Assembly (NCBI RefSeq): GCF_025420585.1
Contig: NZ_JAOEGB010000007.1
Location: forward strand, 62,001-126,000
Reading direction: 5' to 3'
Origin: Planotetraspora sp. A-T 1434
GTDB taxonomy: Bacteria; Actinomycetota; Actinomycetes; Streptosporangiales; Streptosporangiaceae
DNA length: 64,000 nt
Shown: piece by piece, positions 15,711-41,819 of the stretch
Numbering within the stretch: position 1 is the first letter of the stretch
How the letters are laid out: every line of letters starts with the position of its first letter
The notes under the pieces: model-generated
Told to the model about the DNA's origin: nothing
The model's input: only the letters and a program-made list of their open reading frames with translations
Databases searched by the model: none
Made by a program: the position numbers and the translations under genes

Positions 15711-16787
15711 TCACCCGGCTCGGCCGACTATGATCCCCGCGCGGTCGATCACCACGACGTCGACGTCGACTGGGGCGCCGCGCAGGACCCCGAGGGCGGC
15801 GACCCTTGCCCGTTCCGCGACCAGGTCCCCCAGCGGCAGACCGGTCTCCTGGCAGAGCTGGAGCGCCTGCAGTGCCGTGTTGGCGTGCCTGACCCGATCG
15901 GCCAGGTCCTCGGCGCCGCCCGCCTTCCTCACCAGCGCGGCGAGCGCCTCCGTACTGACCTGCGAGCGGCCCGAATGCAGATCCAGGTGCCCGTCCGCGA
16001 GCTTGGAGAGCTTGCCGATGCCACCGGCGACCGTCAACCGGGGAATCGGGTGCCTGCGCAGGTATTTCAGCACGGCCCCGGCGAAGTCGCCCATGTCCAG
16101 GAGCGCGTCTTCGGGCAACCCGTAGAGCTCGGTGGCCACATTCTCCGACGTGCTGCCGGTGCACGCGGCGACGTGCCGATGCCCCGCCGCCCGCGCGACG
16201 TCGATCCCGCGCCGGATGCTGTCGATCCACGCCGAGCACGAGTACGGCACCACGATGCCGGTGGTGCCGAGGATGGAGAGCCCCCCGAGGATGCCCAATC
16301 GGGGATTCCAGGTGTGGCGCGCCAACTCCTCCCCGCCCTCCACGGAGATCTCCACGATGACGTCGCCGCTGCCGCCGTACAGTCCGGCGATCCGCTCGAC
16401 GTGCTCGCGCATCATCTGCCGGGGCACCGGGTTGATCGCCGGCTCGCCCACATCCAGCGGCAACCCCGGCTTCGTCACCGTCCCCACGCCCGGCCCGGCG
16501 CGGAACGTGACGCCGGTCCCCGGAGCGCCGTGCCGTACGGTCGCGGAGATCAGCGCGCCATGAGTCACATCGGGGTCGTCCCCGGCGTCCTTGACCACCC
16601 CGGCCCGCGAACCTCCGCCAGGGGTCAGCTCCTCCACGGCGAGCGCGAACGCCGGACACTGACCGCGTGGCAGCACGATCTCCACGGGATCGGGGAACGA
16701 CCCTGTGAGGAGTGCCGTGTACGCGGCCGTGGTGGCCGCCGTGGCACACGCGCCAGTGGTCCAGCCGTGCCGAAGACCGGTGCTCAT
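15711..16787 (-). CDS. cbiD: Cobalt-precorrin-5B (C1)-methyltransferase CbiD
   Basis: SAM-dependent C1 methylation and deacylation step of the corrin ring; 358 residues. The N-terminus LRHGWTTGACATAATTAAYT and the GVVKDAGDDPDVTHGALISA block are diagnostic of CbiD. In the classical aerobic route CobF performs C1 methylation, and CbiD is normally the anaerobic-route equivalent; here it sits beside oxygen-dependent cobG and no cobF is seen. It diverges from cobK across 35 bp. TACATC about 8 nt before its ATG could serve as a -10 for a leaderless start. Confidence 0.93.
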   Translation of the reverse strand: MSTGLRHGWTTGACATAATTAAYTALLTGSFPDPVEIVLPRGQCPAFALAVEELTPGGGSRAGVVKDAGDDPDVTHGALISATVRHGAPGTGVTFRAGPGVGTVTKPGLPLDVGEPAINPVPRQMMREHVERIAGLYGGSGDVIVEISVEGGEELARHTWNPRLGILGGLSILGTTGIVVPYSCSAWIDSIRRGIDVARAAGHRHVAACTGSTSENVATELYGLPEDALLDMGDFAGAVLKYLRRHPIPRLTVAGGIGKLSKLADGHLDLHSGRSQVSTEALAALVRKAGGAEDLADRVRHANTALQALQLCQETGLPLGDLVAERARVAALGVLRGAPVDVDVVVIDRAGIIVGRAG

Positions 16788-16822
16788 GCGTCAAGGATGT
16801 ACCAGTTTGGGCGGAGCCTCCC

Positions 16823-17614
16823 ATGAGGGCGGGCGTCCTGATCCTGGGAGGGACCGGCGAGGCACGGCGACTGGCGGAGACGCTGGCACGAGAGCCGCGG
16901 CTTCGCGTGATCTCCTCACTGGCAGGCCGGGTGCGCGACCCCAAGCTCCCGCGGGGAGAGGTACGCGTCGGGGGGTTCGGGGGCCCGGACGCCATGGCGG
17001 ACTGGCTGCGTGAGCAGGGCATCTCCGCCGTGGTGGACGCGACCCACCCGTTCGCCGAACGGATCACCGCCTCGGCGGTGCGGGCCACGTCGGCGGCCGG
17101 GGTCCCCCTGCTTGTCCTCCGCCGGCCCGGGTGGCGGGAGGAGCCGGGCGACGACTGGCACTGGACGGCGTCACTGCCGGAAGCGGCCGCGCGGCTTCCC
17201 ACGCTGGGCCGCCGGGCGTTCCTCACCACGGGACGCCAGGGCCTGCCCGCCTTTGCCGGCCTGGACGACCTGTGGTTCCTCATCCGTACGGTCGACCCGC
17301 CCGAGCCGCCGCTTCCATCGAGGTTCCGCCTGCTGCTCGACCGGGGCCCTTACACGCTGGACAGTGAGCTGTCCCTCATGCGGGAGCACCGCGTCGACCT
17401 GCTGGTCACCAAGGACAGCGGAGGAACGATGACCATGCCGAAGCTCACCGCCGCCCGGGAGCTCGGCCTGCCCGTCGTCGTGGTGCGGCGTCCCGCCCTG
17501 CCCGACGTTCCCACGGCCGGGACCGTCGAACAGGCCCTGGCCTGGCTCGACGGCCTCCTCCATCTGGACGAACGGGTCAAGATCCGGGAGCGAGCCCCGC
17601 ATCGTAGGCGATGA
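16823..17614 (+). CDS. cobK: Precorrin-6A reductase CobK
   Basis: NADPH-dependent reduction of precorrin-6A; 263 residues. Opens with VLILGGTGEARRLAETLARE (nucleotide-binding loop) and has DATHPFAERIT, LTTGRQGL and LLVTKDSGG, all family hallmarks. The ATG at 16823 follows GGAG by 7 nt. The last 38 bp overlap the 3' end of the convergent response-regulator gene. Confidence 0.93.
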   Translation: MRAGVLILGGTGEARRLAETLAREPRLRVISSLAGRVRDPKLPRGEVRVGGFGGPDAMADWLREQGISAVVDATHPFAERITASAVRATSAAGVPLLVLRRPGWREEPGDDWHWTASLPEAAARLPTLGRRAFLTTGRQGLPAFAGLDDLWFLIRTVDPPEPPLPSRFRLLLDRGPYTLDSELSLMREHRVDLLVTKDSGGTMTMPKLTAARELGLPVVVVRRPALPDVPTAGTVEQALAWLDGLLHLDERVKIRERAPHRRR

Positions 17615-18230
17615 TGACGAGCTGAACCCGGTCGCGGGCATCCAGCTTGGTCAGCAGCCGCGTCACGTACGTCTTGACGGTGGCGACGCTGACGAACAGT
17701 TCGGCGGCGATCTCCGTGTTGGATCGGCCACGTGCGACCAGTGTCAGGACTTCGCGTTCCCGCCCGGTGATGCCCTTCAGCACGGGGGACGCGAGAGCGG
17801 GCAGGGGGCGGCCGGCGAACTCCCCGATCAGCCGTCGGGTGACACTCGGCGCGATCAGGGCGTCACCGGCGGCGACCACGCGGATCGCCGCGAGGATGTC
17901 GTCCAGAGCCATGTCCTTGACGAGGAACCCGGACGCGCCGGCGCGCAGCGCGCCGTAGACGTAGTCATCGTCATCGAAGGTGGTCAGGATGACCACCCGT
18001 GCCCCGCTGGGACCGGAGATGATCAGCCGGGTGGCGTCGATGCCGTCCATTCCGGGCATGCGGATGTCCATCAGGACGACGTCGGGGCGCAGGTCCTCGG
18101 CGAGCCGTACGGCTTGCGCGCCCGTCTCGGCCTCACCGGCGAGCTCAAGGTCGGGAGCCTCGGTGATGACCATCCGCATCGCGGCGCGGATCAGCGCCTG
18201 GTCGTCGGCGAGCACGATGCGGACGGTCAT
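17577..18230 (-). CDS. NarL/LuxR-type response regulator
   Basis: 217 residues. Receiver domain 1-120: VLADDQALIRAAMRMVI acidic pocket, phosphoacceptor Asp in VVLMDIRMPGMDG, Thr in ILTTFDDDDYV and Lys in FLVKDM. A LuxR-type helix-turn-helix follows: LTLVARGRSNTEIAAELFVS, then VATVKTYVTRLLTKL. Its ATG overlaps the histidine kinase stop (ATGA), so the pair is coupled. Targets are unknown; the adjacent hydrolase-acyltransferase pair is a candidate by position only. Confidence 0.94.
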   Translation of the reverse strand: MTVRIVLADDQALIRAAMRMVITEAPDLELAGEAETGAQAVRLAEDLRPDVVLMDIRMPGMDGIDATRLIISGPSGARVVILTTFDDDDYVYGALRAGASGFLVKDMALDDILAAIRVVAAGDALIAPSVTRRLIGEFAGRPLPALASPVLKGITGREREVLTLVARGRSNTEIAAELFVSVATVKTYVTRLLTKLDARDRVQLVIIAYDAGLAPGS

Positions 18231-19432
18231 CGCACTCCCTCCGGCAGGGGAAGACGGGCCGTCACTCGGAAACCACCTTCGGGACGAGGCGCGGCGGAGA
18301 ACTCCCCACGCAGGAGGCCGACCCGCTCGCGCATTCCGACCAGGCCATATCCGCTTCCCGCCGGACGGCCACGACCGTTCCCCCCGTCGATCACCTCAAT
18401 GGACAGCTCGTCGTCCCGGAAGTCGATGAGCGCCTCGCAGGAATGGGTTCCGGCGTGGCGCACCACGTTGGTGACCGCCTCCTGGATGATCCGGTAAGCG
18501 GAGATATCGATATCAGCAGGCAGCGGGCGCCGCTCGCCCAGCCATCGCACATCGACGCGGACTCCGGCGTCCGTCACGGTCGCCGCCAGCCGGTCGACGT
18601 CGGCCAGCCCCGGCGCCGAGCCGGACGCCGCCGGCTGTGGGGGCTGCCCCGGCTCGGCTTGCCGGAGCGCGGCGACCATGCGGCGCAGCCCGGACAATGC
18701 CTCCCGGCCGACCGTCTCGATCTCGCCCAGCGCCTCCCGCGCCCGTCCGGGCTGGGTCTCGATAACCCGCCCTGCCGCGGCGGCTTGCAGGGCGATGACG
18801 CCGATGCTGTGCGCGACGACGTCATGCAGCTCACGCGAGATGCGCAGCCGTTCGTCGGTGACCGCCTGGGCGGTCGCCAGTGCGACCAGTTTCCCGGCAT
18901 GCTCGCGAGCCTGGTGCACAGAATGCCCTACCAGCCAGGCGATGACCGTCGTCATCGCCACCGCCAGTTCCGCGGAGGTTCCGACGCTCCAGCCGCACAA
19001 CAACCGGGTGGTCAGATAGCCGGCGAGTACGGCGAGCGCACAGGCCACGGCGACGACCCCTGTCCGGCGCGCTCTGGTGGACGCGATGAAATAGAGCGCC
19101 ACGTCGACGGCCAGGAACTGGGCCAGCGGGATCTCCCCGACTCCCAGAGGGAGAGTCTCGATCACGGAGGCGGCGAGGAACAGGGTGAGGGCGCGCAGCG
19201 GCCGGCGGGGCAGCAGAGCGCTTCCAGCCAGCACGAGGCCGGTCGCCACTCCCAGGTAGGTCAGCCCGTCCCACCGGAAGACGAGGACACCGGCCGGCAC
19301 GGCGGACATGGACTCGCCGGGCAGCCTGACACGGATGAGAACCGTAAAGGCCACCCCCGCGCACCAGGTCACCGTCGTCCAGACACCCGGCGGCACCCGC
19401 TTGAGGAAAGGCGGAGGCGGTGCGACGTGCAT
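18227..19432 (-). CDS. DesK/NarX-like sensor histidine kinase
   Basis: 401 residues. Several hydrophobic segments (about residues 15-170) form the sensor, followed by a HisKA_3 dimerisation helix with the phosphoacceptor His in ISRELHDVVAHSIGVIALQA and an HATPase domain (YRIIQEAVTNVVRHAG, then GSGYGLVGMRERVGLLRGEF). I start at the ATG at 19432; the frame is open 19 codons further. The sensor has no recognisable ligand-binding domain outside the membrane. Confidence 0.92.
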   Translation of the reverse strand: MHVAPPPPFLKRVPPGVWTTVTWCAGVAFTVLIRVRLPGESMSAVPAGVLVFRWDGLTYLGVATGLVLAGSALLPRRPLRALTLFLAASVIETLPLGVGEIPLAQFLAVDVALYFIASTRARRTGVVAVACALAVLAGYLTTRLLCGWSVGTSAELAVAMTTVIAWLVGHSVHQAREHAGKLVALATAQAVTDERLRISRELHDVVAHSIGVIALQAAAAGRVIETQPGRAREALGEIETVGREALSGLRRMVAALRQAEPGQPPQPAASGSAPGLADVDRLAATVTDAGVRVDVRWLGERRPLPADIDISAYRIIQEAVTNVVRHAGTHSCEALIDFRDDELSIEVIDGGNGRGRPAGSGYGLVGMRERVGLLRGEFSAAPRPEGGFRVTARLPLPEGVR

Positions 19433-19564
19433 GATCAGAGGGTAACGGCTCGGTATTGAACCGGCATCGGACCAAAGTCGTACATCCACGGTCTACAGAC
19501 GCCCCGAGGAATGCCACCGGCGGTCCGACGCGGCGTCGATGCCCCGTCCGGCACCGTCTGCGGG

Positions 19565-20530
19565 GTGAGCGAATCCGACCGGCTCCGGCTCAGCCGTACC
19601 CCCCTCGCAGCCCTCATCGCCACATTGGTGGTGCTTCCGGTGACGCATGTGGCACGCGCGGCGGCCGTCCCGGCGCCCACCCCTGCGGCGCTGGGCCCGT
19701 TCCGGGCCGCGACCCACGAAGCCCTGGCCCAGAGATACGCCGTGAGCCGGGCCGGCATCCTGGCCGCCGAAGAGACGGCCTCGGCCCACGGAGACCAGTG
19801 GCGTGCGACGATGCTGCACGCGATGGCGGATCCCACCCGCCGGTTCCTGTCGTTCGACGGCCGCGACGGCGGCCGGGCCATGGAGGTGTTCGGGGACCTG
19901 GCGACGGCGGACCGGATCGCGGTGGTGGTCCCCGGCGCCGACACCAACCTCGACAAGTACGGAATCCTGCGCGGCAGTTCGCTGAGGCTCTCCCAGGCGC
20001 TCGGCCAGCGATCCGCTGTCATCGCGTGGCTCGGCTACCACACGCCCAGCACGGTGAGCGCCGAGGCGCTGACGACCGGCCGGGCCGACGCGGCCGTCCC
20101 GCACCTGCGCGCGTTCGTACGCCAACTGCGCGCCGCGAGGCCCCACGCCCGTGTCACCCTCCTGTGCCACTCGTACGGCGGCGTCGTCTGCGCCCGGGCC
20201 GCCTCAGACATGGACGTCGCCGACATCGTCCTGGTCAGCAGCGCGGGCACGACCTTCGACAACGTTGCCGCGCTGCGCACCAAGGCCACCGTCTGGGCCG
20301 GCCGGGGCAGCGGCGACTGGATCGCCTACGTGCCGCACGCGCGGCTGCGCCTTCCCTTCGCGACCATCGGATTCGGTGCGGACCCGCTGTCCCCGCGGTT
20401 CGGCGCACGGCTTTTCGAAGCCGGCGACGGCGGCCACAGCGACTACCTGAAGGCCGGCTCCCCGTCGCTGAGGAGCATCGTCGCGATCGTTGCGGGACAG
20501 GCTCCCGCCCAGGTGGGCCGCGATGCGTGA
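19565..20530 (+). CDS. Secreted alpha/beta hydrolase (DUF1023-like)
   Basis: About 321 residues. Residues 10-35 are a signal-peptide-like hydrophobic stretch ending HVARAAA. The core has VVVPGADTNLDKYG, AWLGYHTPS and the nucleophile elbow LLCHSYGGVVC, where the first Gly of GxSxG is replaced by Cys, followed later by GHSDYLKAGS supplying the catalytic His. This matches actinobacterial DUF1023 hydrolases of unknown substrate. GTG at 19565 is chosen because the signal sequence follows. The gene overlaps the acyltransferase by 8 bp. Confidence 0.8.
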   Translation: MSESDRLRLSRTPLAALIATLVVLPVTHVARAAAVPAPTPAALGPFRAATHEALAQRYAVSRAGILAAEETASAHGDQWRATMLHAMADPTRRFLSFDGRDGGRAMEVFGDLATADRIAVVVPGADTNLDKYGILRGSSLRLSQALGQRSAVIAWLGYHTPSTVSAEALTTGRADAAVPHLRAFVRQLRAARPHARVTLLCHSYGGVVCARAASDMDVADIVLVSSAGTTFDNVAALRTKATVWAGRGSGDWIAYVPHARLRLPFATIGFGADPLSPRFGARLFEAGDGGHSDYLKAGSPSLRSIVAIVAGQAPAQVGRDA

Positions 20531-21716
20531 CCTCATCCGGCGCATCGAGGCCGCGACGCCCTCCGGCCGTGACCGCGGCGTCGATGGACTGCGGGCCGCA
20601 GCCATCCTGGGCGTGGTGCTCGGCCACTGGCTGGTGACCGCCCTGGTCGTCGACAGTGGCACGATACGCGTCGGCAGCCCGCTACGGAGCATGCCGCACC
20701 TCGCCCCCGTCTCCTGGGTGTTCCAGACCATGGCGGTCTTCTTCGTGGTGGGCGGGCAAATGGCCGTGAAGAGCCGTTCCTCCGCCCGCGTCAGGGGCGA
20801 GAGCTACACCCGGTGGCTCGGCATCCGAATGGCCCGCTTGTTCCGGCCGGTCGCCGTCGTGCCGGCGGTGTGGAGCATGGTGGTGGTCACGATGCTCGCC
20901 TTGGGCGCCGACCTGCGAACCGTATTCGCCCTGGCCAAGCTGGTGTGGTCGCCAATGTGGTTTCTGCTGGTCTTCGCAGGGCTGACGGCCGCGACGCCGC
21001 TGGCCGCCAGGACGCATCCGCTTTGGCCGCTCGCCGTCGTCGCGCTCACCGACCTGGTCCGGTTCGGCCTGGGCGGCCCCGCGTGGCCGGGGTGGATCAA
21101 CTACATGGCCGGTTGGCTGGTGCCGTACTGCCTCGGCGCGTCTTGGGAACGCGGCCGCCTCTGCGGGCGCGCGACCGCGTGGGGGCTGCTGCTCGGCGGC
21201 GCCGCCGCCACTGCCGCGCTGGTCCTGTGGGCCGGCTATCCGGCCTCCATGGTCGGCGTGCCGGGTGCCCGCGTCTCCAACCAGGCCCCGCCCACCCTGG
21301 CGGCCGTCACCTTCGGCCTGGCCCAGTGCGGGGCGGCGCTGCTGCTGGTTGGCCCGCTCCGGCGGCTGCTGCGCCGCCCGGCCGCCTGGGCGGTGGTGAC
21401 GGCGGCCAACCTGTCCGCCATGACGATCTTCCTTTGGCACCAGACCGCCCTGATCGCGGTCACCGCTACCGGCATGCTGACGGGCGAGGCCCTGCCGGGC
21501 CTGCACACCGTCCCTGACACCCCCGGCTGGGTGTTCGCCCGGCTCGCCTGGCTGCCTGCCTTCATGGTTGCCCTACTCGTCTGCTGCGCCGCGTTCCTTT
21601 CGTACGAGCGGGGACGTCCGCGGCAAGAGGTGCCGTACGAAGTGTCAGGCCGGATGGCGGCGGGGGGTGAAGACGACGGGCCGTCCCTCTCGCTCGACGA
21701 CGCGTGTCGTCGATGA
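20523..21716 (+). CDS. Membrane acyltransferase (Acyl_transf_3 family)
   Basis: 397 residues, about ten hydrophobic segments. It begins RDRGVDGLRAAAILGVVLGH, the family's catalytic-His region, and has FFVVGGQMAVKS and TIFLWHQTALIAV. Such proteins O-acylate sugars, glycolipids or peptidoglycan at the membrane. It overlaps the upstream hydrolase (ATGCGTGA). The last 22 codons run antisense into a copy of the 3' end of cobIJ (21645-21760); before a 1-kb insertion this gene and cobIJ were probably convergent and overlapping. Confidence 0.85.
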   Translation: MRDLIRRIEAATPSGRDRGVDGLRAAAILGVVLGHWLVTALVVDSGTIRVGSPLRSMPHLAPVSWVFQTMAVFFVVGGQMAVKSRSSARVRGESYTRWLGIRMARLFRPVAVVPAVWSMVVVTMLALGADLRTVFALAKLVWSPMWFLLVFAGLTAATPLAARTHPLWPLAVVALTDLVRFGLGGPAWPGWINYMAGWLVPYCLGASWERGRLCGRATAWGLLLGGAAATAALVLWAGYPASMVGVPGARVSNQAPPTLAAVTFGLAQCGAALLLVGPLRRLLRRPAAWAVVTAANLSAMTIFLWHQTALIAVTATGMLTGEALPGLHTVPDTPGWVFARLAWLPAFMVALLVCCAAFLSYERGRPRQEVPYEVSGRMAAGGEDDGPSLSLDDACRR

Positions 21717-21760
21717 GCCGATCACCAGCAGGCAGCGCAGTCGACATCGGCCGGGTCGAG
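21645..21760 (-). pseudogene. Displaced copy of the 3' end of cobIJ
   Basis: The minus strand encodes [20 protein letters not shown] and then VVFTPRRHPA plus a TGA stop, the same C-terminus as intact cobIJ (which ends RRYPAH). DNA at 21650-21760 matches 22675-22786 at about 95% (I see four substitutions and a one-base gap). Both copies run in the same direction. This is best read as the original 3' end of cobIJ, separated by insertion of the 1-kb islet. Confidence 0.85.
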
Positions 21761-21857
21761 GAGCACCGGGCAGTACATATATGCGCCGCTGCGTCGAGTC
21801 GACGTCGATGCAGGCGACCGTCCCCCTCGAAGCCGAGCCCTGAGGTAGCGTCGTGTC

Positions 21858-22169
21858 ATGAGCGCCCAGCCCATCCACGATCCGTGGCAAGATCCCGAGG
21901 CCATCCTTCGCGGCCTTCCTGAGCAGTACCGGCCCCTTTTCTTGGAGCAATACCAGGAGGCGTGGGAGGCCGCGCGAGAGCCGGGCAAGTACCATCTCCT
22001 GCCCGAACTGTTGCACACGTGGTGGCTGAGCTCGATCGCTTACAACGACCCCCGCCATGAGGAGGCGGTGCGCGAGATCCTCGAGGAGAAGGGTGAGCGG
22101 ATCCCCATCGAGGAGGCCATCCCTGATTGGGAGGAGCGCCTGGCGCAGGCCCAGGTCCGGCGCCGGTGA
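21858..22169 (+). CDS. DUF6247-like small protein, probable antitoxin
   Basis: 103 residues, rich in Glu, Trp and Pro: DPEAILRGLPEQYRPLFLEQ, then YQEAWEAAREPGKYHLLPEL. This agrees with actinobacterial DUF6247 proteins, which are usually paired with a small RelE/ParE-like partner. The stop overlaps the GTG of that partner (GTGA). It lies inside the cobIJ-flanked islet, consistent with an addiction module that outlived its element. No clear Shine-Dalgarno sequence. Confidence 0.7.
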   Translation: MSAQPIHDPWQDPEAILRGLPEQYRPLFLEQYQEAWEAAREPGKYHLLPELLHTWWLSSIAYNDPRHEEAVREILEEKGERIPIEEAIPDWEERLAQAQVRRR

Positions 22170-22414
22170 GCTACCGCGTCGAACTGCGCGGGCTGGCCCT
22201 GACCAAGATGAAGGACTTCCCTACCGAGGCGCTCACCGCGCTGGTAGCGCGGGCCGCCGACTTGGTGCGCGAGCCCTGGGATGCCAGGGTGGCCAGACCG
22301 GGCACGGCCGATTTCCGCCAGACGACGTTCGGCGACGGCATGGGCATCTTGTGGTTCCACCTCGACGCGACGGCCGAGCTGATCGAAATCTATGACCTGA
22401 TCTGGGCGGGCTAG
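22166..22414 (+). CDS. RelE/ParE-like small protein, probable toxin
   Basis: 82 residues. YRVELRGLALTKMKDFPTEA, then FRQTTFGDGMGILWFHLDAT, then ending LIEIYDLIWAG. The short alpha-beta layout with a final strand resembles RelE-superfamily partners of DUF6247. GTG start at 22166 overlaps the upstream stop, so translation is coupled. Toxicity is inferred from arrangement only. Confidence 0.62.
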   Translation: MSYRVELRGLALTKMKDFPTEALTALVARAADLVREPWDARVARPGTADFRQTTFGDGMGILWFHLDATAELIEIYDLIWAG

Positions 22415-22454
22415 GCCGACCCGCGCACGCTGTTCCTAGGCGAGATCGCCGTGA

Positions 22455-22660
22455 CCACCTTGGATGCCTTACCCCCCGCCACGCCTCCAGGTCCTCGTCC
22501 AGCACGGCGCATACCCTCGGTCACGTCCCGTACCGGCCGGACATGCTCGTGTCCTCGTGGCCCATCCGCTCGACCTTCAGAGCTTGTAAGCATGCCGGGA
22601 AGCGCCATGAGTTCACTGCGGCGACGGTTACAAGGCCGTTCCATCCTTCCCGGTTGGGGG
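22455..22660 (-). pseudogene. Decayed tyrosine recombinase (integrase) C-terminus
   Basis: Read across frames on the minus strand, the segment gives VERMGHEDTSMSGRYG, then (after a frameshift) VTEGMRRA, then (after another) VLDEDLEAWRG. This is the conserved tail of actinobacterial element integrases, with the catalytic Tyr in RYG. The upstream R-H-R catalytic part is missing, so it cannot be functional. Confidence 0.75.
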
Positions 22661-22666
22661 GCAGCA

Positions 22667-24226
22667 CTAATGAGCCGGATAGCGGCGGGGGGTGAAGACG
22701 ACAGGCCGTCCCTCTCGCTCGACGACGCGTGTCGTCGACGAGCCGATCACCAGCAGGCACCGCATGTCGACATCGGCCGGGTCGAGCTTTGCCAGAGTGG
22801 TGACGCGCAGGGTCTCCGCCGGTCCCCCGACGTCCCGCCCGATGACCACCGGCGTGTCCGGGCCGCGATGCCGTAACAAAAGGTCCCTCGCCGCGGCCAC
22901 CTGCCACGTACGGCTCCGCGACGCCGGGTTGTAGACGGCGATCACGAGATCGGCCGCCGCGGCGGCGGCGAGGCGGTCCGCGATCACGTCCCAGGGCTTG
23001 AGCCGGTCGGACAGGGAAAGGACGCAGTAGTCGTGCCCCAGCGGCGCCCCTGCCCGGCTCGCGACCGCCTGGGCGGCGGTGAGCCCGGGGACCACGCGGA
23101 CCGGCACATCCGCGTACTCGGGCTCGCATGCCACCTCGAGGACCGCGCTCGCCATGGCGAACACCCCAGGGTCTCCCGAGGACACCACCGCGACCCGGGA
23201 CCCCTCCTTGGCCAGCCGCAGCGCGTGCGCCGCCCGCTCGGCCTCCACGCGGTTGTCCGTGGGATGCCGGCGCTGGCGGGGGTTGGGCGCCACCCGGTCG
23301 AGGTACGGGCCGTACCCGACGAGATCATCCGCGGTCGCGAGGGCGTCCTGGGCTTCGGGCGTGAGCCAGGGACGGCCCGCCGGGCCGAGCCCCACTACGA
23401 CGACCTCCCCCCGAGACGCCGCCGCCGGCCCATCGGCAGCCGACTCCACCCGGACGGCGGACGGCGTGTCGATCCTGCTGGGGAGGATGGCCACCGAGAA
23501 GTACGGAACCTCCTCGGGGGCCACGTCGGCGAGCCGTTCGATCCGCTGACGGTCAGTGGTGGCCCGCTCGACGTACCAGGCGTCGTCCAGGCGGCCCGCC
23601 TGCTCCAGCGCGTCCCGCACAGACGTGAACGTACGGCCCAGCTTCAGGATCGCCGCCGAGTCCGTGGCGGCCAGCCGTACGGCGAGCTCTTCGGGCGGCA
23701 GCGTCCCGGGCAGGACGGTGAGGGTCTCGTCCCGCTCGACGAGCGGGCGGCCGAGCACCGCGGAGGCCGCGCTGACGGACGTGACGCCGGGGACGACCTC
23801 TGTCGGGTAACGGTCCGCCAGGCGCTTGTGCAGGTGCATGTAGGAGCCGTAGAAGAGTGGATCTCCCTCGCAGAGCACGACCACGTCACGTCCGGCGTCG
23901 AGGTGCGCCGCGAGTCGCTCGGCGCACGTGACGTAGAACTCCTCGATGGCCCCGCGGTAACCGCCCGGATGGTCGGTGGTCTCCGTGGTGACGGGATAGA
24001 TCAGTGCTTCCTCGATCTGGTCGCCGCGAAGGTACGGCGCGGCCACCGCGCGGGCGATGCTCCGGCCGTGCCGGGCACTGTGGTAGGCGATCACGTCCGC
24101 CTCACGGACGAGACGCGCGGCCTTCACCGTGACCAGTTCCGGATCCCCGGGCCCGAGCCCCACGCCGCGCAAACGCCCCACCGGCGCAGGCTCCCGGCCG
24201 CCGGGCTCGCTGATCTTGTCGCTCAT
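22667..24226 (-). CDS. cobIJ: Fused precorrin-2 C20- / precorrin-3B C17-methyltransferase CobIJ
   Basis: 519 residues with two tandem tetrapyrrole methylase domains. Residues 15-255 (CobI): [53 protein letters not shown]. Residues 270-519 (CobJ): [73 protein letters not shown]. CobI makes precorrin-3A and CobJ contracts the ring after CobG, so the fusion and cobG act on consecutive intermediates. The ATG overlaps the cobH stop (ATGA), with GAGGAAGA before it. It is the last gene of the nine-gene riboswitch operon, and its 3' end is duplicated 1 kb downstream. Confidence 0.94.
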
Positions 24227-37167: not shown

Positions 37168-38406
37168 CTAGTTGATCGTCCACTTCTGGTTGGCGCCGCC
37201 GGAGCAGTCCCAGATCTGCAGGGGCGTGCCGTCGGCCGAGCTCACGTTGGTGGCGTCCAGGCACTTGCCGAGCGCGCGGAGTGTGCCGTCGCCGGGGGCC
37301 GTCCACTTCTGCGCCGCCGTGCCGTTGCAGTCGTAGAGCTGGACCTTCGTCCCGTTGGCGCTGTTGGCTCCCGCCACGTCCATGCACTTGCCCAGGGCCC
37401 GGAGGGTGCCGTCCGAGCCGACGGTCCACTGCTGGGCGGCGGTGCCGTTACAGGTCCAGAGCTGGACCTGGGTGCCGTTGACGGAATTCGCGCCCGCGAC
37501 GTCCACGCACTTCCCGCCGTAGCCGGTGATCTTCTTCGCGGTGCCGCCGCCTCCACCTCCGGCGGTGTCGGTGACGCGCACGTAGTCGACGACGAGCTGC
37601 TGCGGGAAGACGGTGGTGGCGTCGGGGTCGCCCGGCCAGTAGCCGCCGACGGCGAGGTTGAGGATGACGAAGAACGGGTGGTTGTAGACCCACGTCCTGC
37701 CGCCCAGGTCGGCGGGCGTGCGGGTCTGGTAGGCGACGCCGTCCACGGACCAGGTGATGGTGTTGGGCGACCAGTCGATGGCGAAGGTGTGGAAGCCGTC
37801 GGCGAACTTCTGACCCCCCGGCAGGGTGTAGGGGGCGCCGATGCCTCCGGAGCCGAAGTAGCCGGGGCCGTGCAGGGTGCCGTGGACCGTGCTCGGCTCG
37901 AAGCCGACGTTCTCCATGATGTCGATCTCGCCGCTGTCCGGCCACTGAACGTCGCCGATGTTGCTGCCTAGCATCCAGAAGGCCGGCCACATGCCCTGGC
38001 CGCGCGGGATCTTCATGCGGGCCTCGAAGCGGCCGTAGGCCTGTGTGAACCTGCCTGCCGTGTTCAGCCGGGCCGAGGTGTACTGGCAGCTGCCGTACCA
38101 GCAGTTGTAACCCGCGGGGTTCTCCCGGCGTGCGGTGATCACCAGGTTGCCCTGGCCGTCGAGGGAGGCGTTCCTGGTGCTGTTGGTGTAGTACTGCCGC
38201 TCGTGGTTGTTGACGTTGTCGCCTGTCTCCAGCTGCCACTTGCCGCCGTCGACGGCGCTACCGGCGGGCCCGGTGAAGTCGTCGAAGAAGGTGACGGTGG
38301 CGGCGGAAGCGGGCGCCGGGGTCAGCGTGCCGTACGTCGAGACGATCGTGACGGCCGCCAGGAGCGCGAGGCCGCGCCGGCGGATCCCGGGCAGGCTGAT
38401 TGACAT
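37168..38406 (-). CDS. Secreted GH16 endo-beta-1,3-glucanase with C-terminal ricin B lectin
   Basis: 412 residues. Signal peptide 1-35 (RRRGLALLAAVTIVST, ending PASAA). GH16 domain about 37-280 with the catalytic motif SGEIDIMENVG (nucleophile and acid/base Glu) and WPAFWMLG; the motif with Met is the laminarinase type. A Gly-rich linker leads to a ricin-type lectin (residues 290-412) of three repeats, each with a GKCxDxAGANS start and a Q-x-W end. Secreted; should cut beta-1,3-glucan. The lectin is almost the same as that of the GH30 enzyme 2.6 kb away. Confidence 0.93.
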   Translation of the reverse strand: MSISLPGIRRRGLALLAAVTIVSTYGTLTPAPASAATVTFFDDFTGPAGSAVDGGKWQLETGDNVNNHERQYYTNSTRNASLDGQGNLVITARRENPAGYNCWYGSCQYTSARLNTAGRFTQAYGRFEARMKIPRGQGMWPAFWMLGSNIGDVQWPDSGEIDIMENVGFEPSTVHGTLHGPGYFGSGGIGAPYTLPGGQKFADGFHTFAIDWSPNTITWSVDGVAYQTRTPADLGGRTWVYNHPFFVILNLAVGGYWPGDPDATTVFPQQLVVDYVRVTDTAGGGGGGTAKKITGYGGKCVDVAGANSVNGTQVQLWTCNGTAAQQWTVGSDGTLRALGKCMDVAGANSANGTKVQLYDCNGTAAQKWTAPGDGTLRALGKCLDATNVSSADGTPLQIWDCSGGANQKWTIN

Positions 38407-38661
38407 GTGCCGGCTCCTTTCGGGGGTGAGCGGAGCGATGAGCCACTGGGCGCGCGAAAGCCGGGAGCGTCGCCAGGACCGGGCGGGCAGGCTCCACCCC
38501 TGGCGAGGACGCCGCTCCAGTGGTGTAAGGGAGGGACCCGCGACTAGCGAGGAATGGTCGACCCGGACCCTTTTACGCCACTTAGTTAATGCTATGAATT
38601 GAACCGTGATGGATCACAATGGGTCAAGAGGCTGGCGGGGACACGACGGAGAGCGCGGCAC

Positions 38662-39969
38662 ATGGCGATGAGGCGAGCGACGGCCCGCGACGTGCGCCGG
38701 GCCAACCGGTCCGTCGTGCTCACCAAGATCTACTCGGAGGGGCCGCTGAGCCGTCACGACCTGACCCGGTTGACGGCGCTGTCCCAGGCCAGCGTGAGCA
38801 CTCTGGTGGCCGAACTGCTGGAGGAGGGGCTGGTCGAGGAGGCCGGGCTGGTCGAGTCCGACGGAGGCCGCCCGCGCACGCTGCTCCGGGTGTCCCCGGC
38901 GTACGGTCATGTCATCGGCGTCGATGTCGGCGAGACGCGCATCCAGGTCGAGCTGTTCGACCTGTCGATGACCGCGCTGGCCAAGACCGACCGCCCGATC
39001 GAGCCGGGCAGGATGGATCCGTCCGAGGTCGTCGGCCACGTGCTCGACGGCATCGGCTCGGTGACCGGCCAGGCGGGCGTCACCGAGTCGGCGCTGCTCG
39101 GCGTCGGCATGGCCGTCTCCGGCGTGGTCGACCAGGGTGACGACGGGCTCGTCCACGCGCAGACGCTCGGATGGGACGGCGTGCCGCTCCGGGCCATGCT
39201 GCGCGCCGGCACCTCAGTGCCCATCCACATCGACAACGGGGCCAAGACCCTGGGCCAGGCCGAGATGTGGTTCGGCGCGGGCCGGGGCGCTCAGCACGCG
39301 GTGATCGCGCTGGTCGGCTCGGGCGTCGGGGCGGCCGTCGTCGCCGGCGGGATGAGCTATCGCGGCGCGCGGAGCAGCGCGGGCGAATGGGGCCACACGA
39401 CGCTCGTCTTCGGCGGGCGGCTGTGCCGGTGCGGCGCCCGCGGGTGCCTGGAGGCGTACGTCGGCGCGGAAGGCGTCCTCGACCGGTTCCGGGAGGCCAA
39501 CCGCGGCCGTCCGGCGGAGGCCGCCGACGAGGAGTCGGCCATCGGAGCCCTGATGGCGGCCGCCGACGAGTCGCGGACCGCGCGGCGCGTCCTGTCGGAG
39601 ACGGTGGAGTATCTGGGCGCGGGGATAGCCTCGCTGATCAACCTGTTCAACCCCGAGCGGATCATCCTCGGGGGCTGGGCGGGGCTGGCCCTCGGGGCGC
39701 GCTGGCTGCCGGAGATCCGGGCCGCCGCGGGCGAGCACGCGCTACGGCGCCCGTTCTCCCAGGCGAAGATCGAGATGTGCCGGCTCGGCCAGGACGCGGT
39801 GGCGCTCGGCGCGGCGACGCTGCCGGTGGCCGAGCTGCTCGCCACCGGCGGGACGGCGCGATCGGCCTCCACGACCCCCCTAAGCACCCTGAGCCCGGTG
39901 AGTCCAGCGAGCCCCCTGAGTCCGGTGAGCCCGGTGCGGCCCCTGGCGGGACCGCACCGGGCCGGGTGA
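38662..39969 (+). CDS. ROK-family transcriptional regulator (beta-glucan locus)
   Basis: 435 residues. Winged helix at 10-70 (SRHDLTRLTALSQASVSTLV), then ROK domain: VIGVDVGETRIQVELFDLSM, IDNGAKTLGQAEMWFGAGRG, SAGEWGHTTLVFGG and the zinc site CRCGARGCLEAYVGAEGVL. The C-terminus ends in a Ser-Pro-rich tail of SPVSP/SPLSP-like repeats. The ATG at 38662 is chosen because the frame before it has no coding character. It diverges from the GH16 gene and converges with GH30, 5 bp apart. Likely regulates one or both; an AT-rich stretch at 38570-38610 is a candidate operator region. Confidence 0.88.
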   Translation: MAMRRATARDVRRANRSVVLTKIYSEGPLSRHDLTRLTALSQASVSTLVAELLEEGLVEEAGLVESDGGRPRTLLRVSPAYGHVIGVDVGETRIQVELFDLSMTALAKTDRPIEPGRMDPSEVVGHVLDGIGSVTGQAGVTESALLGVGMAVSGVVDQGDDGLVHAQTLGWDGVPLRAMLRAGTSVPIHIDNGAKTLGQAEMWFGAGRGAQHAVIALVGSGVGAAVVAGGMSYRGARSSAGEWGHTTLVFGGRLCRCGARGCLEAYVGAEGVLDRFREANRGRPAEAADEESAIGALMAAADESRTARRVLSETVEYLGAGIASLINLFNPERIILGGWAGLALGARWLPEIRAAAGEHALRRPFSQAKIEMCRLGQDAVALGAATLPVAELLATGGTARSASTTPLSTLSPVSPASPLSPVSPVRPLAGPHRAG

Positions 39970-39974
39970 GCGCT

Positions 39975-41819
39975 CTAGACGGTCCACCTCTGGTTGGCTC
40001 CGCCCGAGCAGTCCCAGATCTGCAGGGGCGTGCCGTCCGCGGAGCTCACACCCGTGGCGTCCAGGCACTTGCCGAGCGCCCGGATGGTGCCGTCGGCGCC
40101 GACGGTCCAGGTCTGCGCCGCCGTCCCGTTGCAGTCGTAGATCTGCACCTTGGTCCCGTTGGCGCTCGACCCGCCGGCCACGTCGAGGCACTTGCCGAGC
40201 GCGCGGATCGTGCCGTCGGCGCCGACGGTCCACTGCTGGGCCGCCGTGCCGTTGCACGTCCAGAGCTGGACCTGGGTGCCGTTGGCGGAGCCGGCGCCCG
40301 CCACGTCCACGCACTTGCCGCCGTAGCCGGTGATGGCCGTGGCGCCGCCTCCGCCGCCGGACTGCGTCCCCGCCCAGGTGAAGGTCGCGGACGTCTTGGT
40401 CGGCAGTGTGTAGGTGAACGACTGGCCGCCCCAGTTCACCTTGACCGACTGCGGGCCGCCGGTGTTGTTGTACGCGATGAGGGCCTTGCTCCCGTCGGGG
40501 TTCTTCCACGCGACGTTCGGCACCGAGGAGTTCGCCGTGGAGTCGATGCGGTACGCCCCGGGCTTCACGAACTTGGTGAGGTGGCCCATCGTGTAGTACT
40601 CGATCGTGTAGTCGACCTGGCCGTGCCTCGCGTCGCCGTTGTGCACGGTGATCAGGCCGGTGCACTTGTCGCAGCCGCCGGCGTGCGGGCCGTAGTTCTG
40701 GTCCACGGCGAGGCTCCACTTGACCCAGCTGCGGTCCCAGTTGCGGGTGTAGTCGACCAGGTTGAGCATGTCCTCCGTCTGCTGGTTGGCGATCCACGTG
40801 CCGCCGGAGTGCTCGGTCATGTAGTGGTTGATCGACGGGTACTGGTTGTGCACGGTGGTCTGCAGGTTCACGTCGCCGCCGTACCCGTGCCACGCGATCC
40901 CGCCGAACAGCGGGTCGCTCCGGATGGCGGAGTCGGACAGCGGCACCGAGCCGAAGTCGTTGTAGTCGCCCCAGTTCCAGTCGAGGACGAGGGTCTTCGC
41001 CGTGATGCCGGCGTCGCGGAAGGCCGGCCAGAGGTTGTTCTTCATGAAGTAGGCCAGGCCCGAGCCGTTCCAGTTCATGGAGGCGTAGGTCGTGCCGGGG
41101 CCGCAGCAGTTGGGCTCGTTGGACACCGACACGTAGTCGGTCTTGACTCCTTGCGCCTGGTAGGCCTGGACGTACTTCACGAAGTACTGCGCGTACATCG
41201 GGTAGTACTCGGACTTGAGCCAGCCCTGGTTGACGAAGCTGTTGTTGTCCTTCATCCAGGCGGGGGCGCTCCAGGGCACCGCCATGACCTTCAGGTTCGT
41301 GTTGAGCGCCTTCGCCTGCTTGGTCAGCGGGAGCACGTCGGCGAGGTCGTGCGCGATCGAGAAGTCGCCCAGGTCGCAGCACGTGTCGTCGTAGGAGTAG
41401 TTGTACCGGGCGAGGTCCGAGGCGCCCATCGGGTTGCGCAGGAACGCCAGTCCAATGCCGTCGACCGGGTCGAACAGCTTCCGCATGACGGCGTCGCGTG
41501 CCGTCGGGGTGAGCGCGCCGCTGCTGTTCATCAGCCAGGCGGCGGTGTCGGTGAACGACGCGCCGCCCCCTTCGAACTGCTGGTACGTGGTGTTCTCGTT
41601 GACGGTGACCGTCTGGTTGCCCGCCGGGCTGCTCGCCGCGAACGCGATGGGCGTCTGCGGCTGCAACCCGCGGGTGACGACCCGGCCGCCGGAGTCGGAC
41701 GTGGTGGTCAGCCAGATGTTGACGGCCTCGCCCGCGGCCTGCGCCGCGGGGGCCTGGACGACGCCGAGTCCGGCGCCCGCGAGAAGCAGGGCGCCGGCCA
41801 GGGCCAGCCGTGATGGCAT
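39975..41819 (-). CDS. Secreted GH30 glucanase with C-terminal ricin B lectin
   Basis: 614 residues. Signal peptide 1-28 (ALAGALLLAGAGLGVV, ending AAQAA). GH30 domain about 35-480: QQFEGGGASFTDTAAWLMNS, LKVMAVPWSAPAWMKDNNSF, acid/base Glu in VSNEPNCCGPG, nucleophile Glu in YMTEHSGGTW and a late beta-sandwich. A Gly-rich linker and a three-repeat ricin B lectin (490-614) follow. GH30 members include beta-1,6-glucanases and glucosylceramidases; a beta-1,6-glucanase fits the neighbours. Secreted. Confidence 0.9.
   Translation of the reverse strand: MPSRLALAGALLLAGAGLGVVQAPAAQAAGEAVNIWLTTTSDSGGRVVTRGLQPQTPIAFAASSPAGNQTVTVNENTTYQQFEGGGASFTDTAAWLMNSSGALTPTARDAVMRKLFDPVDGIGLAFLRNPMGASDLARYNYSYDDTCCDLGDFSIAHDLADVLPLTKQAKALNTNLKVMAVPWSAPAWMKDNNSFVNQGWLKSEYYPMYAQYFVKYVQAYQAQGVKTDYVSVSNEPNCCGPGTTYASMNWNGSGLAYFMKNNLWPAFRDAGITAKTLVLDWNWGDYNDFGSVPLSDSAIRSDPLFGGIAWHGYGGDVNLQTTVHNQYPSINHYMTEHSGGTWIANQQTEDMLNLVDYTRNWDRSWVKWSLAVDQNYGPHAGGCDKCTGLITVHNGDARHGQVDYTIEYYTMGHLTKFVKPGAYRIDSTANSSVPNVAWKNPDGSKALIAYNNTGGPQSVKVNWGGQSFTYTLPTKTSATFTWAGTQSGGGGGATAITGYGGKCVDVAGAGSANGTQVQLWTCNGTAAQQWTVGADGTIRALGKCLDVAGGSSANGTKVQIYDCNGTAAQTWTVGADGTIRALGKCLDATGVSSADGTPLQIWDCSGGANQRWTV

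Follow-up and report, generated by a model that had tools for sequence, protein, structure and literature searches.

Except for the pSLS subfamily, the vast majority of the actinomycete integrative and conjugative elements (AICEs) with tyrosine recombinases are integrated at the 3' ends of tRNA genes, according to passages of a published account that also give rep and FtsK-like tra genes as the AICE hallmark and record an attL attachment site of 81 bp (PMC3218068). A Streptomyces survey places 14 of 51 integration sites in protein-coding genes and offers a precedent for decay that left part of an integrase, cargo and a pair of direct repeats (PMC9513070). Here we describe a 0.9-kb islet in Planotetraspora sp. 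A-T 1434 that is bounded by two copies of the end of a cobalamin gene, cobIJ. The islet lies in a 64-kb stretch of the draft genome, hereafter the window (G000:C104:62001-126000). A first-pass annotation of this DNA had proposed that the cobIJ 3' end is the attachment (att) site of a decayed integrative element. This is the best-supported reading, and we hold it with moderate confidence. Judged by the survey figures, a protein-coding att site is less unusual than the accompanying remark on a cobalamin gene in this role supposed.

The locus was compared with 341 genomes of the family and with a class-wide sample of 394 genomes; this genome is the sole representative of the host's genus in the set searched. 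In addition, 80 named cobIJ loci were collected with up to 10 kb per side; 79 of them allowed a test for repeats, the exception, L194, extending 94 bp downstream. The closest three cobIJ ends belong to Sphaerisporangium, in a named genome collection that may omit the host itself.

Direct repeat of the cobIJ 3' end

Self-comparison of the window showed that 113 bp of the cobIJ end, preceding its terminal codons, recur in direct orientation as 112 bp with 95.6% identity over 113 columns (E 1e-44) and a start-to-start distance of 1025 bp. The earlier description of a repeat of about 111 bp at 1.0 kb is thus confirmed. The seven other direct pairs at E <= 1e-6 in the window have 64-84% identity. 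As also described earlier, both copies encode a C-terminus and a stop, RRYPAH* in the intact gene and RRHPA* in the displaced copy. The displaced copy is one base short within the GTCGACATG stretch and is attached to no cobIJ body. The 3' end of the proposed target gene is therefore repeated directly on both flanks of the islet, and cobIJ stays complete with the displaced end on the islet's far side, although the site-by-site signal is mixed, as described below. An assembly artefact might be considered for a draft genome of 7.78 Mb in 136 contigs. It is very improbable, given a divergence of about 4.4% between the copies and a position some 84 kb inside a 292-kb contig.

A core identity block at both ends, which the first-pass annotation had advised looking for, was found as a 35-bp identical stretch. 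It contains, in the displaced and in the gene copy alike, an inverted repeat with 8-bp arms and a 4-bp spacer, possibly a recombination core. The palindrome is weak evidence for such a core, and was rejected as proof of it, because arms of at least 8 bp also occur in 5 of 93 relatives and in 44 of 2000 shuffles.

Features of the islet and its surroundings (window positions)
Feature	Position	Strand	Remark
cobK, usual convergent neighbour of cobIJ in relatives	16712-17614	+	no longer similar to relatives beyond about 17557
Inserted cassette: response regulator, histidine kinase, hydrolase, acyltransferase	17577-21644, or from 17557		gene order found elsewhere in relatives
Displaced cobIJ 3' end, proposed as the second att site	21649-21760	-	stop codon just beyond, 21645-21647
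Inverted repeat, within the displaced copy's 35-bp identical core	21694-21713		same in the gene copy
DUF6247 protein, proposed antitoxin	21858-22169	+	Pfam PF19760, E 2.9e-11
RelE-like protein, proposed toxin	22154-22414	+	limits of the searched open frame, translation probably beginning near 22166; predicted structure and homologs
Tyrosine-integrase C-terminal remnant with the RYG tyrosine	22411-22653	-	secure about 22411-22587, weak to about 22653; frameshifted, internally deleted
cobIJ, precorrin-2 C20- / precorrin-3B C17-methyltransferase fusion, proposed target gene	22667-24226	-	PAH* end seen in no relative read
Gene-side repeat copy, proposed att site within intact cobIJ	22674-22786	-	self-comparison

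Contents of the islet

Between the copies lie a DUF6247/RelE-like pair and a frameshifted integrase tail with RYG. This part of the first-pass annotation is borne out by the Pfam match of DUF6247, by structural matches of the RelE-like model and by alignment of the tail with an intact integrase from another genome of the family (G028). The tail contains GH...RYG, which we take to be the tyrosine-integrase motif, and its segment MGHEDTSMSGRYG matches the 524-aa integrase of G028 with E 2e-6 in a search space of the 1155-bp stretch only. Relative to that integrase, the remnant changes frame and misses about 90 nt (some 30 codons) after RYG. Its end overlaps the end of the RelE-like open reading frame (ORF) by 4 nt on the opposite strand. 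DUF6247 was the sole match in a Pfam scan of five islet frames, and the frames of the remnant had none. The remnant is too eroded for its target to be inferred.

In G028 (locus L038) the intact integrase gene is convergent with genes for a RelE-like and a DUF6247 protein, with the same order and the same 4-nt integrase/RelE overlap as in the islet; beyond the pair lies the 3' end of a tRNA-Pro gene. The G028 integrase, used as a query, found matches at E <= 1e-70 in 20 of the 341 family genomes; the host is not one of these 20. A tRNA gene is present at 15 of these 20 subfamily loci, and no tRNA was found in the sequence available at the other five. In all 15 cases the tRNA 3' end faces the integrase 3' end at a distance of 9-123 bp, or 698 bp in G028, where the pair lies between. 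A second copy of the tRNA end was not found within 40 kb of eight intact integrases. With one tRNA-Ile end as the query, G222 yielded a 43-bp copy and G201 a 47-bp copy, each on the strand of the tRNA, 100% identical to the query and about 43 kb from the tRNA; these are probably att pairs. Because of these copies, integration by this subfamily probably duplicates gene 3' ends as direct repeats, and the elements appear able to reach about 43 kb. The tRNA-Ile 3' end has extra copies of 43-48 bp in G222:C1 near 1.36-1.39 Mb and in G028:C1 near 0.24-0.26 Mb, which suggest other integrated or decayed elements. In the 13 of 20 genomes for which both are listed, the integrase and cobIJ occupy separate contigs or are separated by more than 200 kb; among the remaining seven, G114 has a weak cobIJ-end match whose place is not listed, and six have no cobIJ-end match listed.

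The two ORFs of the pair overlap. The RelE-like ORF has no Pfam match, and neither protein was matched by NCBIfam or PADLOC. The AlphaFold model of the RelE-like protein, built from a two-row alignment, has a mean confidence (pLDDT) of 81.7. Its top eleven PDB matches are all RelBE or HigBA chains, the best at E 8.4e-3 and none at or below 0.001. In a search with its sequence profile, Rv2866 appeared at E 0.11 only, ranked under unrelated chains. The protein thus modestly resembles RelE/HigB toxins, and toxin and antitoxin roles are predicted for the RelE-like and DUF6247 members of the pair, respectively. RelE-like homologs were found in 56 of the 341 family genomes. Among 30 loci read, including the window, DUF6247 stands alongside in 27 and a G028-type integrase in two (the window and G028); the pair is therefore common and not bound to this integrase. 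A native origin of the pair at the cobIJ site was rejected: no DUF6247/RelE-like pair turned up in the cobIJ loci of 21 relatives, in a search that did not extend to the 80 named loci, and among the 30 RelE-like loci the integrase is a neighbour only in the window and in G028.

Which cobIJ ending is native

The 40 distinct cobIJ ends of the family are PRRYPA* (29), PRRYPS* (5), PRRYP* (3), PRRYPV* (1), PRRYPAE* (1) and one unlike the others. The displaced copy ends in PA*, like 29 of the 40, and the present gene ends in PAH*, like none of them; PAH* is also absent from the named loci, whose ends vary more. Comparison with 99 relatives site by site gives a mixed signal. On the 5' side of the central 35-bp block, the displaced copy has two oddities, namely the lost base and a TCA present in none of the 99 relatives. 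On the 3' side, two codons and the stop show the rarer form in the gene copy. Codon 17, on the 5' side, and codon 44, on the 3' side, run counter to this (see below). The pattern fits a crossover within the block followed by decay, and would fit other duplicating insertions as well.

Junction of cobK and cobIJ

In the named loci, cobK is convergent with cobIJ in 48 of 80 cases and on the same strand in five; the other 27 have no cobK match in the available stretch. The two genes overlap in 30 of the 48 convergent loci; the gap between them is no more than 200 bp in 11 others and larger in seven. Sphaerisporangium corydalis (L084 5367-6275, also L149) has a methyltransferase-like ORF, named by eye, between cobIJ and cobK, so this junction accepts other genes too. 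In the window the usual tail of cobK is replaced, and a 4-kb cassette of four genes sits between cobK and the displaced cobIJ copy. Its gene order occurs elsewhere in relatives, complete in L279, L280, L281, L287 and L288 among ten stretches fetched.

The acyltransferase gene of the cassette, whose frame continues into the displaced copy to position 21716, had been considered an originally convergent and overlapping partner of cobIJ. The relatives give this place to cobK. Similarity of the acyltransferase stops 10-34 bp short of the displaced stop in 17 of 19 relatives' loci and earlier in the other two. Since its similarity ends before that stop and its cassette lies elsewhere in relatives, the acyltransferase was not the ancestral partner; it belongs to the inserted cassette, and may already have been the neighbour of cobIJ before the element arrived.

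Both the cassette and the islet lie between cobK and cobIJ, so at least two insertions occurred at this junction. One could suppose that the whole 5.1 kb is an accretion of two elements in one site, one of them carrying the cassette, and that the outermost att copy, by cobK, was deleted. Accretion at a single site is documented in passages of the Streptomyces survey (PMC9513070), the two segments lie back to back between genes that are neighbours in relatives, and the replaced cobK tail would agree with it. However, the cobIJ end has no third copy near cobK, the four-gene order occurs in other places in relatives, and the G+C content of the cassette (71.4%) equals that of the window. We consider accretion improbable. 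The islet has a G+C content of 66.4%, compared with 71.1% for the window, a difference that counts in favour of the att-site reading discussed below. Elsewhere in the window, positions 37178-40360 hold repeats of about 140-385 bp with 76-84% identity in the self-comparison.

Other cobIJ ends

The C-terminal peptide of cobIJ has matches in 236 of the 341 family genomes. Double matches occur in only three of them: in the host the two share a contig and lie 1 kb apart, and in G314 and G328 the second match is on another contig. Class-wide, 151 of 394 genomes match, with two matches in the host and in G046 (the second on another contig, E 0.001). The peptide search missed another, weaker pair in G253, where the cobIJ 3' end is duplicated in adjacent tandem copies (L091 8986-9211, G253:C34; 111 columns, 86% identity) without any element. 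This duplication is bounded by an 11-bp repeat, GACCCCGAGCG, and looks like the result of slippage or short-repeat recombination.

Thirteen stretches of viral contigs fitted the pattern of an isolated cobIJ end with an integrase, and none was confirmed. The single phage match, to UNVERIFIED Pseudomonas phage Y13 (OQ572414.1; L258 2393-4111), is a 572-aa cobJ-like open frame and was rejected as an att-sized fragment. In a plasmid search 74 records matched; among the 40 listed, judged by feature names only, the named features are all cobalamin genes, many rows being unannotated.

The att-site interpretation

We favour the cobIJ 3' end as the att site of the former element because the integrase subfamily sits at gene 3' ends, the module order in G028 matches that of the islet and relatives show an islet-free cobIJ end. 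The comparison with islet-free relatives that the first-pass annotation had suggested succeeded in part: in 41 of the 48 convergent named loci the cobK-cobIJ junction is too tight for the islet. These are not exact pre-insertion sites, because they also lack the cassette. The proposal as a whole likewise falls short of proof: the searches revealed no intact element at cobIJ, the polarity is opposite in the 15 relatives with tRNA genes, and the integrase is eroded.

Several observations weigh against this interpretation. The suggested search for intact integrases beside cobIJ 3' ends was negative, the subfamily integrase being found in none of the 80 named loci (tblastn E <= 1e-4). In the 79 testable loci, extra direct hits of the gene end were weak and did not exceed 32 bp. 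tRNA genes are the only neighbours seen for subfamily integrases, and no tRNA gene was found in the 64-kb window. In all 15 tRNA cases the integrase opposes the direction of the gene, whereas here the integrase and the cobIJ fragment are co-directional. The 112-bp repeat exceeds the 43-47 bp of the relatives, and no xis, rep or tra gene was recognised in the 0.9-kb islet. Within the repeat, the displaced copy shows the commoner form at codon 17, where the gene copy was expected to show it, and has His at codon 44, where Tyr is invariant in 99 relatives. Finally, any insertion duplicating 112 bp here would likewise put the native ending on the displaced copy.

These observations leave room for a duplication not made by the integrase. 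A staggered break or homology-aided joining might have taken in a fragment with the pair and an already broken integrase tail, with fill-in or a single crossover duplicating 112 bp. The location of the subfamily at tRNA genes, not at cobIJ, and the reversed polarity speak for such an event; the element-free duplication in G253 indicates that the cobIJ end can duplicate by itself, and the cassette is an instance of another insertion at the junction. This scenario nevertheless demands a coincidence, namely that an integrase remnant and a pair in the order found at the tRNA side in G028 came to be bounded by a repeat of a gene 3' end. We regard it as rather unlikely.

If the cobIJ 3' end was the att site, a tyrosine integrase would have recombined an attP bearing a stretch like the cobIJ end with the chromosomal 3' end of the gene. 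The element would thereby have given cobIJ its last bases and a new stop, keeping the gene whole, and the old 3' end would have moved to the far side. Such an exchange is suggested by the two copies, one with an ending like that of relatives and the other with an ending unseen in them. Later deletions would account for the loss of almost the whole element; of its integrase only the tail remains. To judge from relatives, the original element was probably much larger than the 0.9-kb remnant. The toxin-antitoxin-like pair stayed open, perhaps because its loss is costly. The unrelated four-gene cassette entered the junction before or after the element. We further speculate, with some doubt, that an integrase lineage of the tRNA type switched to the cobIJ 3' end with the site reversed, and that the junction of cobK and cobIJ forms a minor hot spot for insertions in the family.

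The mechanism is ordinary and the remnant is dead. Its interest is that a biosynthetic gene joins the probable protein-coding attachment sites of actinomycetes, and that a toxin-antitoxin-like pair here outlasted its element. The locus also calls for caution, as a repeat and a neighbouring gene do not reveal the ancestral order; relatives point to cobK as the original partner.

Comparison with known elements

Literature searches, judged by the titles they listed, found no published report of a cobalamin gene as an att site. Since protein-gene targets and decay are documented and a cobalamin target was not found reported, cobIJ is probably a new target gene for a known behaviour. Like actinomycete AICEs and other integrative and conjugative elements (ICEs), with tyrosine integrases at the 3' ends of genes, decayed ones included, the islet has direct repeats of a target-gene end, a partial integrase and small cargo; the repeats given in the passages cited are 11, 46 and 93 nt, with one attL of 81 bp, compared with 112 bp here (PMC9513070, PMC3218068). 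In contrast to these elements, it has a cobalamin gene as its target and no recognised replication or transfer gene. Entry at the 3' end of a protein-coding gene is shared with Salmonella genomic island 1 (SGI1) at trmE, as described in PMC8409611; SGI1 has another host, and the islet is a fossil only. The integrase-RelE-DUF6247 module of G028 differs from the islet in its tRNA neighbour, its opposite polarity and its intact integrase. The two share the gene order, the convergent 4-nt overlap and a gene of target type beside the pair.

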